Positions 41,987 through 46,124 of a stretch of 64,000 nucleotides of DNA are shown piece after piece. The notes under the pieces were generated by a model. It was not told the DNA's origin and did not search any database. It saw only the letters and a program-made list of their open reading frames with translations. Origin of the DNA: Rhodanobacter sp. (lineage in GTDB: Bacteria; Pseudomonadota; Gammaproteobacteria; Xanthomonadales; Rhodanobacteraceae). How positions within the stretch are numbered: the first letter of the stretch is position 1; the number at the start of each line of letters is the position of its first letter. The stretch covers positions 1 to 64,000 of the forward strand of contig DZBX01000002.1 of the NCBI GenBank assembly GCA_022730075.1, given 5' to 3'. The position numbers and the translations under genes are program-made.

Positions 41987-44269
41987 ATGAACATGCGCAA
42001 GCTTTGGGTGCTGGTCGCCATGGGCTGCGGGCTGTGGACCGCCGTGACAGCGGCGCAGGCGCAGTCCGCCGAGGAAGCGCCGCCGGATCGCGTGGCGCGC
42101 CTGGCGGTGATCGATGGCAGTGCCAGCCTGCTGCCGGTCGGCAGCCAGGATTGGGGCAACGCTTCGATCAATCGTCCGCTGGGCACCGGTGACAAGCTAT
42201 GGATCCCGGAAGGCAGCCGTGTGTCGCTGGAGCTGGGCGGCACTGAGATGCGCCTCGATGGCGACAGCGGCTTCGGTCTTCTGCATCTGGGCAACGACAC
42301 CGCGCAGGCGCAACTGACCTCGGGCACGCTCAATCTCAACGTGCGCCACCTGTACTCGGGACAGGATTACGAGATCGACACGCCCACGCTGGCCTTGGTC
42401 ACGCGCCAGCGTGGCCAGTACCGCCTCGACATCGCGCCGGATGGCAAGGGCACCCAGGTCACGGTGTTCAGCGGCGAGGCCACGGTGTACGGGCAAGGCG
42501 GCGCCGAGCGCCGCGTCACCGCGGGCAATTCGTATCGTTTTCTCGACTCGAGCCTGGCGCAGGTCGAGGTGTTCGCCGTGCCCGCGCCGGACAGCTTCGA
42601 TCGCTGGTGTTTCGCGCGCGACGCGCGCTATCAGCGCGACTACGGCAGCTCGCGTGAATACGTCTCCCGCGAAGTGATCGGTTATCAGGATCTGACCAAT
42701 TACGGCACCTGGCAGAACGAGACCGAGTACGGCCCGATGTGGTTCCCGACCGCGGTGCCGGTGGGTTGGGCGCCTTATCGCTACGGCCACTGGGCGTGGA
42801 TCGCGCCCTGGGGCTGGACCTGGATCGACAACGCGCCATGGGGTTTCGCGCCGTTCCACTACGGGCGTTGGGCCTACATCGGCAACCGCTGGGGCTGGGT
42901 CCCAGGCCCGCTGGCGATGCGCCCGGTCTATGCGCCGGCGCTGGTGGCTTTCGTCGGCGGATTTGGCGGCGGCATCGGCTGGAACGTCGGCGTCGGCGGC
43001 CCGGTGGGCTGGTATCCGCTATGGCCGGGCGCGGTATTCGTGCCGTGGTACCGCTGCGGGCCGCGCTACTTCCGCAACGTCAATGTCACCAATATCCGCG
43101 TGGTCAACAACACCACGATCAACAACATCAACAACACCTACAACATCTACCGCCGCGGTGGCCATCTCAATCTCACGCAGATCGGCGATCATCGCATCCC
43201 GCCGCGCGCGCTGACCCTGGTGCCGCATGATGTGTTCACCGGCGCGCACCAGATCGGCCCGCACAGACTGGTGCAACGCCCGCACGGCACGGTTTTGCGT
43301 GGGCCGCTGGCGCTAGGTGCGCCGCCGGTTCCAGGGCGCGGCAGCCTGATGGCGCCCAACCACGGGCTTCGACCCGAGGTGCCGCGGCCGATTTTCGCGC
43401 GCAACGTGATGGCGCACCGGCTGCCGCCGCAAAAGGTCTACGCGCTGCCGCAGCGCGCCGATGGCTATCGCCTGGCGCGCGGTGACCAGGCGCGGCCGAT
43501 GTTGCCGGCGCAGCCGGTGCGCATCGCCAGTAACGTGCAGGTGATCGGTGCGCGCGCGCAGCCTGGCATGCGTCCGGCGCGCGGCGATGTTGCCCTGCCG
43601 CAGGCACCGCGCATCGAGCGCGCGCAAGGTGGGCCCGCCGCCGCGCCGATGGCGCGTTCCCCCATGCAGCGGCGGGACGCGATGCCATCGGCGAATTTCG
43701 TACCGCATCGCTGGCAACCGGAGATCTTGCCGCGTGCCACGCGCCTCGAACCGGCGCCGATGGTCGCGCCGGGCGCGCGCACGCAGATCCGGCGCGAGCA
43801 TGGCGCGCAGATCATCGAGGGTCGTCCGCAGAGCGGTGGCGGCAGCTTCAGCGTGATGCCGGGCAACCGCAATGCACCGCCTGCGCAGGCAGGTGGCCGC
43901 CCAGGTTATGACGTGTCACGCCAGGGCGGCTATCCGCAGGCACCGCGAGCGGATTTCAATGCGCCGCGCAATGGCATGCGCGAGGCGCGTCCGCGCGAAC
44001 CGGCCTATGGCCAAGGCGTCCAGGTGATCGAAGCACCGCGCAGCGGCAACAACGCACCGCGCGAGAATTTCCGCGCGGCACGTCCGCGCGAACCGGCCTA
44101 TGGTCAGCGCGCGCCCATGCCGCCACCGCGCATGCCGCAGTACCAGCCGCCGCCACAGCAGTTTCGCGCACCGCCCCAGGCGAGGCCGATGCCTGCACCG
44201 CGCGAAGCGCCGCCACCGCGCGCGCGCGCGGAAGAACCGCATCCGCCACACGGCGGCGGGCGCGACTGA
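41987..44269 (+). CDS. Secreted DUF6600/FecR-like protein with low-complexity tail
   Basis: A protein of 760 aa with a signal peptide (residues 1-25, ending AQAQS), a FecR-like beta-rich domain (~35-190: RLAVIDGSASLLPVGS...VTVFSGEATVYGQGG) and a Trp/Tyr/Gly-rich DUF6600 region (~230-390: YGHWAWIAPWGWTWIDNAPW). The tail of more than 300 residues is rich in Pro, Arg, Gln and Ala. DUF6600 proteins are exported and uncharacterised; an envelope or matrix role is a guess. TTGACA at 41878-41883 with TGAAAT 16 nt downstream is a possible promoter. Confidence 0.8.
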   Translation: MNMRKLWVLVAMGCGLWTAVTAAQAQSAEEAPPDRVARLAVIDGSASLLPVGSQDWGNASINRPLGTGDKLWIPEGSRVSLELGGTEMRLDGDSGFGLLHLGNDTAQAQLTSGTLNLNVRHLYSGQDYEIDTPTLALVTRQRGQYRLDIAPDGKGTQVTVFSGEATVYGQGGAERRVTAGNSYRFLDSSLAQVEVFAVPAPDSFDRWCFARDARYQRDYGSSREYVSREVIGYQDLTNYGTWQNETEYGPMWFPTAVPVGWAPYRYGHWAWIAPWGWTWIDNAPWGFAPFHYGRWAYIGNRWGWVPGPLAMRPVYAPALVAFVGGFGGGIGWNVGVGGPVGWYPLWPGAVFVPWYRCGPRYFRNVNVTNIRVVNNTTINNINNTYNIYRRGGHLNLTQIGDHRIPPRALTLVPHDVFTGAHQIGPHRLVQRPHGTVLRGPLALGAPPVPGRGSLMAPNHGLRPEVPRPIFARNVMAHRLPPQKVYALPQRADGYRLARGDQARPMLPAQPVRIASNVQVIGARAQPGMRPARGDVALPQAPRIERAQGGPAAAPMARSPMQRRDAMPSANFVPHRWQPEILPRATRLEPAPMVAPGARTQIRREHGAQIIEGRPQSGGGSFSVMPGNRNAPPAQAGGRPGYDVSRQGGYPQAPRADFNAPRNGMREARPREPAYGQGVQVIEAPRSGNNAPRENFRAARPREPAYGQRAPMPPPRMPQYQPPPQQFRAPPQARPMPAPREAPPPRARAEEPHPPHGGGRD
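43989..44103 (+). repeat. 22-nt direct repeat in the DUF6600 gene tail
   Basis: The same 22-base sequence, coding for RPREPAY in the ARPREPAYGQ motif, occurs at 43989-44010 and 44082-44103, a spacing of 93 nt or 31 codons. It reflects an in-frame duplication in the disordered tail. Confidence 0.75.
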
Positions 44270-44348: not shown

Positions 44349-45875
44349 TTACTGCCGGCAACTGCTCGGCAGGTAGCGCCGCGGCAAATCCAGCCCCTGG
44401 CAAGTCCAGGCGAGCGTGCCGTCCCGCGCGCGCGGCGCCAGCATCAGCATCTTGCCGCTGATCTGCACGTTCGCGGTGTTGCCGTACTGCACCAGGATAT
44501 TGCCGTCACGCACCGCGACCGCGGCGACATACCTGCCGCTGATGCTGCTCGCCGCCGGCAAGCCCGCGCTGGCGTTGTCGGCAGGATAGCGATGGGTGTT
44601 CGCATAGAACCGCGCCACGTCAGTTCTGGCGCCGCCAGCCAGGGTCAGGCCCTCGGTCACTTGCGCGCGCACAATGTAATTCTGATACGCCGGAATCGCG
44701 ATTGCGGCCAGGATCGGAACGATCAGAAACGCGAACACACCCGCGAACACGATGCCGACAATGGCGCCGGCCGAGAGCCCCGGACGATAGCCGCTACTTG
44801 CCACGGTGCCGCTGCGCAACGCGCTGCGATACCCCGCCAGGCCCTCCCTGCGCACCACAAGCGTGCCGGCGATCATGTCGTGCAATGCCTGCTTGCGCTG
44901 CGTCCAGCCGATCATGAAATAACCGAAAAACAAGATCATCGCCGAAAGATAAGAGGCGAAAAAACGCCCCGTGGCACGTCCGAAACCAATGCGCGCGCCA
45001 TCCAGCGCAGTCACATGCAAGCCCAGCGCCAGCATGCCGGGCGAGGCTTGCAGCCTGGAACTCTGGAACAGGGATGCGTACAGCCAGGCAACACTGATGT
45101 TGATGAAAAACATCAGTACATGCAGACCGGCATATCCGCTCCAGGCAAAATCCCAACCCGCCAGCACCGCAAACGGCGCTCCTGCTGCCGCACTCGCCAG
45201 CGCGACCACGAACATGCTGCCCGCGGACAGAATCAGCCCGTCCAGTATCGCCGCGATCAAGCGCAGCCAGAAGCCGCCATACAGATCGCGGCGCTCATGG
45301 TGCGTTGGCAGCCAGCCGGAGCCAAGAGACGCAGCCGCGGCGACCGGAGTGCCCGCGGCGGGCATCGTGCTATCTGCGCTGACCGCCCACCCGTCAACGG
45401 CTGCGGCTGGCGCGGCATCGGGTGTTACCGGTGCCACAGCGGGGCTGGGATCGCCGGTGTCCAGCGCAAGGTCCAGATCCTTGCCGGCGCGCCAGTCGCT
45501 GGCTGCGATCCACGCTGCATTCGCAGCCAGCGCGCGCACCTTGTCCTGCGCCGGAACGCTGCCGGCGTCCAGTGCCTGCTCGAGCCAGCGTGCACTCAAA
45601 GGCCCGCATACCCGATCCTCATGATGTAACCACACGCGCTCGCCCTGCTCGGGCAGTAGCGCCACTTCAAGGCCAGCCTGTTGCAGGGCATCGGCTTGAC
45701 GCCGTGCTTGCGACTCGTCAACCGGCTTCAGGCTCAGCGGCATGCGGCGCTGCACCTCCGCGAGGAAAACCTCGGGCGATTTGCGCAGCAAACCCGCCGC
45801 ACGTGTCCAGACCTGATCGACGTCCGCACCGCTTTGCACGCGCCCCGTGAGCGTGACCGCGAATTGCATCTCCAT
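44349..45875 (-). CDS. Multidomain membrane protein: GYF-like, RDD and type IV pilin-like domains fused
   Basis: A protein of 508 aa. Residues 1-80 form a small alpha/beta domain. Residues 81-128 resemble a GYF_2/DUF4339 module (VWLHHEDRVCGPLSARWLEQ...AWIAASDW). Residues 200-343 are an RDD domain with several membrane helices (GFWLRLIAAILDGLIL). Residues 370-508 look like a major pilin: helix VPILAAIAIPAYQNYIVRAQ, then VTEGLTLAGGARTDVARFY and the Cys492-Cys506 loop ending YLPSSCRQ. No GFTLIE prepilin peptidase site precedes the helix, so it should stay membrane-anchored. The ATG at 45875 follows AAGGGG by 6 nt. Function unknown. Confidence 0.8.
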   Translation of the reverse strand: MEMQFAVTLTGRVQSGADVDQVWTRAAGLLRKSPEVFLAEVQRRMPLSLKPVDESQARRQADALQQAGLEVALLPEQGERVWLHHEDRVCGPLSARWLEQALDAGSVPAQDKVRALAANAAWIAASDWRAGKDLDLALDTGDPSPAVAPVTPDAAPAAAVDGWAVSADSTMPAAGTPVAAAASLGSGWLPTHHERRDLYGGFWLRLIAAILDGLILSAGSMFVVALASAAAGAPFAVLAGWDFAWSGYAGLHVLMFFINISVAWLYASLFQSSRLQASPGMLALGLHVTALDGARIGFGRATGRFFASYLSAMILFFGYFMIGWTQRKQALHDMIAGTLVVRREGLAGYRSALRSGTVASSGYRPGLSAGAIVGIVFAGVFAFLIVPILAAIAIPAYQNYIVRAQVTEGLTLAGGARTDVARFYANTHRYPADNASAGLPAASSISGRYVAAVAVRDGNILVQYGNTANVQISGKMLMLAPRARDGTLAWTCQGLDLPRRYLPSSCRQ

Positions 45876-45923
45876 GAGATCCCCCTTGTGCGGGCCACCC
45901 GCATCAACGCCTAGAATAGCGCC

Positions 45924-46124
45924 ATGAATCTGCTGCTCAATGGCCAGCCGCATCACTGTGCCGCGCCCTGCAACGTTGCGAAATTGCTCGAAGACGCCGG
46001 TTACGCGCAGCGCCGTGTCGCGGTCGAGGTCAATCGATGCATCGTGCCGCGCTCCGAACACGCCACACACCTGCTCGCCGAAGGCGATCGCGTCGAGATC
46101 GTCCACGCCATCGGCGGTGGGTGA
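45924..46124 (+). CDS. thiS: Sulfur-carrier protein ThiS
   Basis: A protein of 66 aa with a ubiquitin-like beta-grasp fold ending in the flexible Gly-Gly-Gly that is adenylated and thiocarboxylated to deliver sulfur to the thiazole of thiamin. MNLLLNGQPHHC and LAEGDRVEIVHAIGGG are typical. The usual downstream thiG is not present here; a strong hairpin follows the stop codon immediately. It is divergent from the RDD-pilin fusion gene, with 48 nt between the starts. No TPP riboswitch is visible in the short leader. Confidence 0.9.
   Translation: MNLLLNGQPHHCAAPCNVAKLLEDAGYAQRRVAVEVNRCIVPRSEHATHLLAEGDRVEIVHAIGGG

Follow-up and report, generated by a model that had tools for sequence, protein, structure and literature searches.

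Locus and domain architecture

Within the 64,000-nucleotide stretch of Rhodanobacter sp. DNA analysed here (the window), a minus-strand gene with an ATG start codon at position 45875 and a stop codon at 44349-44351 encodes a protein in which an RDD membrane domain runs on into a type IV pilin domain, a building block that is normally cut free to build pili (Table 1). An earlier note on this DNA gave no strand for the gene. A G-rich stretch lies upstream of the start codon, and the gene is located between a divergent ThiS-like gene (45915-46121, plus strand) and a convergent DUF6600 gene (41987-44269, plus strand). The small ThiS-like gene is conserved at this site across the genus.

Table 1. 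Features of the RDD-pilin gene in the window.
Feature	Coordinates	Strand	Evidence and remarks
Whole gene	44349..45875	-	508 aa: L7/L12-like + GYF_2-like + linker + RDD + uncleaved pilin; full-length homologues exist
L7/L12-CTD/ClpS-like fold (predicted), residues 1-77	45645..45875	-	Foldseek 1ctf; weak profile search
Degenerate GYF_2-like module, residues 80-132	45480..45638	-	hhalign 95.4; weak Foldseek matches to GYF domains
Ala/Pro-rich linker, residues 140-198, evolving fast	45282..45458	-	pLDDT < 50; low orthologue identity
RDD membrane domain, residues 199-337, two long helices and a broken third	44865..45281	-	PF06271, 69.5 bits (cut-off 24.1); model; hydropathy
alpha1N (hydrophobic first half of pilin helix alpha1), residues 369-395, without G/F/E processing motif	44691..44771	-	
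Type IV pilin domain, residues 402-507	44355..44672	-	PF00114, 85.3 bits (cut-off 22); pLDDT ~98; Foldseek Neisseria pilins, E 1e-9
Disulfide loop Cys492 to Cys506, ending YLPSSCR	44358..44402	-	invariant in A1

The single unbroken frame described in the earlier note is borne out by intact orthologues in sister genomes (93, 77 and 64% identity) and by purifying selection, and an assembly artefact or lone chance fusion is ruled out by these orthologues together with the wide recurrence of the architecture. As for the domains named in that note, RDD and Pilin both exceed their Pfam cut-offs, while GYF_2 is present only as a derived GYF_2-like module: no Pfam match to GYF_2 (PF14237) was found in the window protein at E <= 1. 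Alignment of a profile of its own subfamily with the clear GYF_2 domains of homologues, which score up to 63 bits, gave an hhalign probability of 95.4 (E 1.8e-8), and one member of the subfamily (L100) matches GYF_2 at E 6e-4, under the cut-off. For residues 1-77, Foldseek aligned the model with the ribosomal L7/L12 C-terminal domain 1ctf at a probability of 1.00 and a TM score of 0.75 by target, but with an E value of 0.07, and three of the four weak matches in a profile search were to L7/L12 (E ~0.5); the L7/L12 C-terminal-like fold assigned to this region is a suggestion only. Within the RDD domain, the conserved residues R205, D212 and HD332-333 are invariant. The N-termini vary among RDD-pilin relatives, consisting of L7/L12-like and GYF-like modules, GYF_2, a zinc ribbon (L076/L109), or nothing.

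Pilin fold and membrane topology

That the C-terminal region folds as a pilin, the claim on which the earlier note had staked its interpretation, is supported by modelling. A full-length AlphaFold run on 11 sequences modelled the membrane parts poorly (pLDDT 61.6); running residues 195-508 with 63 sequences solved this (mean pLDDT 90.3, pTM 0.67, pilin head ~98). In this model, pilin helix alpha1 spans residues 369-427 and is followed by a four-stranded sheet; Foldseek matched it to the N. gonorrhoeae pilus subunit 5vxx (E 1e-9, TM 0.75 by target), and a phmmer search against the PDB returned Neisseria pilins over residues 382-499 (best E 2.5e-24). The Cys492-Cys506 pair is conserved, as is the YLPxxC end, and at least two cysteines occur in 42 of 45 fused heads. 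The region shares alpha1, the four-stranded sheet and the C-terminal disulfide loop with PilA/PilE (PF00114), at 30-36% identity to the Neisseria structures; unlike these pilins, it lacks a leader and Gly-1, Phe1 and Glu5, and it is the C-terminal part of a large membrane protein.

Hydropathy analysis identified four hydrophobic stretches, the strongest of which is the pilin's own alpha1N (2.83). The RDD part had been proposed to hold the pilin fold in the membrane; however, it is not the sole anchor, as alpha1N forms a fourth, separate membrane helix. In the structure model, the third RDD hydrophobic stretch is not continuous but forms two short helices, suggesting that the N-terminus would be cytosolic and the pilin head periplasmic.

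Loss of the processing site and retention of the helix core

When aligned on Pro22, the window pilin carries Val, Gly and Ala at positions -1, +1 and +5, and no G-F-x3-E motif occurs anywhere in the 508 residues, ruling out a prepilin peptidase site farther upstream and confirming the absence of such a site proposed from the initial reading of the DNA. The same holds across the family: Glu5 is found in none of the 45 fused pilins (27 RDD-bearing and 18 GYF-pilins without RDD) compared with 111 of 113 canonical pilins of the collected loci, a set chosen partly by motif, such that the latter fraction is not independent while the former is. Gly-1 is likewise present in 5/45 fused and 110/113 canonical pilins. 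Lacking both the prepilin peptidase site and Glu5, the fused pilin would be neither cut free nor built into a filament in the way of a normal subunit.

Positions 1-13 of the fused pilins are merely hydrophobic, and positions 15-24 (ILAAIAIPAY) are near-invariant, with P22 in all 45, Y24 in 44, and A17 and A18 in 43. Judged from these alignments, the segment is as conserved in fused pilins as in PilA, which fits retained pilin-pilin or platform contacts.

Conservation of the locus within the genus

Full-length orthologues occupy the window site in three sister genomes (G012, G009 and G005), and a further one in G011 is split by a contig end. Four genomes (G004, G007, G008 and G010; L298-L301) carry only the cytosolic L7/L12-like and GYF-like half, which ends at the first RDD residues, and G001 has a broken copy at the same site. 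Among intact orthologues, dN/dS is about 0.2-0.3 over the protein as a whole and 0.22-0.33 in the pilin head, and it stays below 1 in each domain; all domains are under purifying selection. The truncated forms give values of about 0.33-0.48, and the cytosolic-half orthologues are apparently still under selection.

No pilus assembly genes were found among the recurrent neighbours of approximately 26 loci examined, including that of the window, which speaks against a link to pil operons. Elsewhere in the same genome, a prepilin peptidase gene adjoins a gene for a PilB-like ATPase, and other ATPases of the T2SSE family are encoded as well, two of them side by side and of PilT/PilU size, indicating that a pilus system exists for the RDD-pilin protein to act on. 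A pilA gene was not found in this fragmented assembly; close relatives have canonical pilins.

Fused and split forms across the order

The survey of RDD-pilin fusions proposed in the earlier note reveals a recurrent rather than unique architecture. RDD and pilin domains occur in one frame in at least 22 of 299 genomes of the order, a lower bound given that five candidates were scored per genome, and are distributed among families f1, f2, f4, f10 and f12, with others among near relatives. Among 369 genomes of the class (~364 of them outside the order), the only such fusion was the window's own.

In family f2, about a dozen loci have the co-oriented gene order dprA-smg-[GYF-pilin]-[GYF-RDD]x1-3-topA, whereas smg is directly followed by topA in most other families. 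The GYF-pilin and GYF-RDD genes are adjacent in L088, L089, L091-L093, L095, L097, L127, L128, L175 and L177, as separate genes for what the window protein has in one chain. Two or three tandem GYF_2-RDD genes lie directly 3' of the GYF_2-pilin gene in the smg-topA interval of L127, L128, L091 and L095. The corresponding position is occupied by a single fused gene (dprA-smg-[RDD-pilin]-topA) in L110-L114, and in L103 (f4) the fused gene follows dprA-smg while topA is elsewhere in that genome. In the window's family, f1, smg was found in one sampled genome only (G028). The alternation between fused and split genes at one orthologous site makes the strongest case for joint action of RDD and the uncleaved pilin. 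At this site, the GYF-RDD genes of L086/L129 and L131 stop just past alpha1 (...IIAAIALPAYQEYVRR) and retain only the first helix of the pilin, showing that the pilin head can be dropped; from its distribution, the head is dispensable in several relatives and the pilin would not be needed for every function of the family. Taken across the order, the relatives, fused or split, point to a pilin-sensing or docking protein and not a fibre former.

Uncleavable pilin modules on other proteins

Motif-less pilins also form the C-terminus of an M48 peptidase (L136:6079-7497) and of lipoprotein-like proteins of ~730 residues (L133, L134, L137, L182, L185 and L198), and occur in GYF_2 proteins with a DUF4234-like part just under its cut-off (L180; similar in L006, L123 and L135) and, in another order, in a DUF2628-like protein (L306); the DUF2628 and lipoprotein labels are a reading of the sequence. 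The lipoprotein-like proteins have a puzzling topology, with a hydrophobic helix after an apparently exported domain. Frames of 182 to 559 residues in the same genus (L195, L196 and L068, the last at G000:C227:33526-33780) match the pilin head only, apparently without alpha1N.

In a pilin tree of poor resolution, the window's group includes several of these other carriers, suggesting that the pilin module may have been swapped among them. The best tree, in which the regex used for labelling wrongly called L047, L134 and probably L189 canonical, places the fused pilins in three groups; however, the AU test does not reject a single clade uniting RDD- and GYF-fused pilins (p 0.19).

Comparison with described proteins

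No description of the RDD-pilin architecture was found in literature searches on RDD or GYF with pilin. The closest described proteins are XAC3805 of Xanthomonas citri and AZ78_3612 of Lysobacter capsici, DUF4339 pilin-like proteins without a prepilin leader and encoded away from pil clusters, the latter being called probably not a bona fide pilin (PMC10333488, PMC4960238, citing Dunger 2014). The window protein shares these properties with the two DUF4339/GYF_2 proteins; however, these papers describe no RDD part, and the window protein unites all its parts in a single chain that has an L7/L12-like domain in addition. Ordinary RDD (PF06271) and GYF_2-RDD proteins resemble it in the RDD helices with their R, D and HD motifs and in the GYF_2 placed in front, but stop after these helices where the window protein continues into a pilin. 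Weak profile similarity to ComP (PF16732) covers alpha1 and the first part of the head, although the match is below the cut-off (17.3 bits against 27.3), and the fused family is unprocessed with heads that are not generally basic.

Putative function of the RDD-pilin protein

The reading tentatively favoured here, at somewhat less than even confidence, is an inner-membrane adaptor or sensor that keeps an uncleaved pilin as a permanent periplasmic domain. Its cytosolic N-terminus would present two modules of a protein-binding type, the L7/L12-like and the GYF_2-like one, ahead of the RDD helices, and a cytosolic linker would lead to alpha1, which would cross the membrane outwards and carry the folded head into the periplasm. 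In the inner membrane, the conserved lower part of alpha1 and the head would engage pilins, minor pilins or the assembly platform, leaving the cytosolic modules to report or recruit; this topology, the binding to pilus components and the direction of signalling are what we infer for the protein.

The role of receptor, assembly adaptor or decoy for the pilus machinery that the earlier note had suggested finds no backing in the recurrent neighbours or in relatives that do without the head. The adaptor stays the leading hypothesis chiefly because ILAAIAIPAY is conserved although the processing site is gone. Counting against it, the head, or the whole RDD-pilin half, has been lost repeatedly while the rest was kept, and the same pilin module is carried by unrelated proteins, including lipoprotein-like ones of differing topology.

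Nearly as likely is that the pilin is simply a convenient folded domain that brings its own membrane helix and has been recruited as the outward part of a GYF or zinc-ribbon plus RDD envelope sensor or transporter with no link to pili left. The mix-and-match partners speak for this possibility, with GYF, zinc ribbon or nothing in front and RDD, DUF4234-like, DUF2628-like, M48 peptidase or lipoprotein-like parts, as do the acidic and divergent heads of many relatives, the loss of the head in several lineages and the lack of pil neighbours at the loci examined. However, positions 15-24 of alpha1 are much more conserved than plain membrane anchoring would require, and the head in the window's group retains about 50-57% identity to PilA from related species.

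A role in natural transformation, in which the protein, related to the DNA-binding pilin ComP but fixed in place, would pass DNA on from the pilus to the inner membrane, is improbable. The weak ComP_DUS match of 17 bits, the basic window head (pI 9.8) and the location of the locus downstream of dprA in two families are in its favour; however, dprA-smg-topA carries no insert in most families and looks like a housekeeping operon that received genes, and the window copy is not at dprA. The heads of relatives are also mostly acidic (median pI 5.5 when RDD-fused and 4.9 when GYF-fused), which argues against a ComP-like DNA receptor as a family trait. A recent accidental fusion without function, to which the one broken and four half-length sister copies might point, is highly improbable, and for the family as a whole the observed conservation already refutes it: fusions occur in five or more families of the order, dN/dS is low over the whole protein and below 1 in each domain, and the disulfide and motif are preserved.

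Beyond the adaptor or sensor favoured for the window protein, a broader and rather doubtful proposal is that these proteins belong to a widespread, undescribed inner-membrane class in which an uncleavable pilin serves as a portable C-terminal module on RDD, DUF4234-like, DUF2628-like, M48-peptidase and lipoprotein-like parts. Such proteins would couple cytosolic GYF or zinc-ribbon modules, or enzymes, to the membrane pilin pool, sensing retraction or controlling the pilin stock. Annotation by the Pilin domain alone mislabels fused proteins of this kind as PilA. The fixed-pilin family, with its cytosolic binding modules, is a concrete candidate for the sensing of pilus retraction and the management of the inner-membrane pilin pool.
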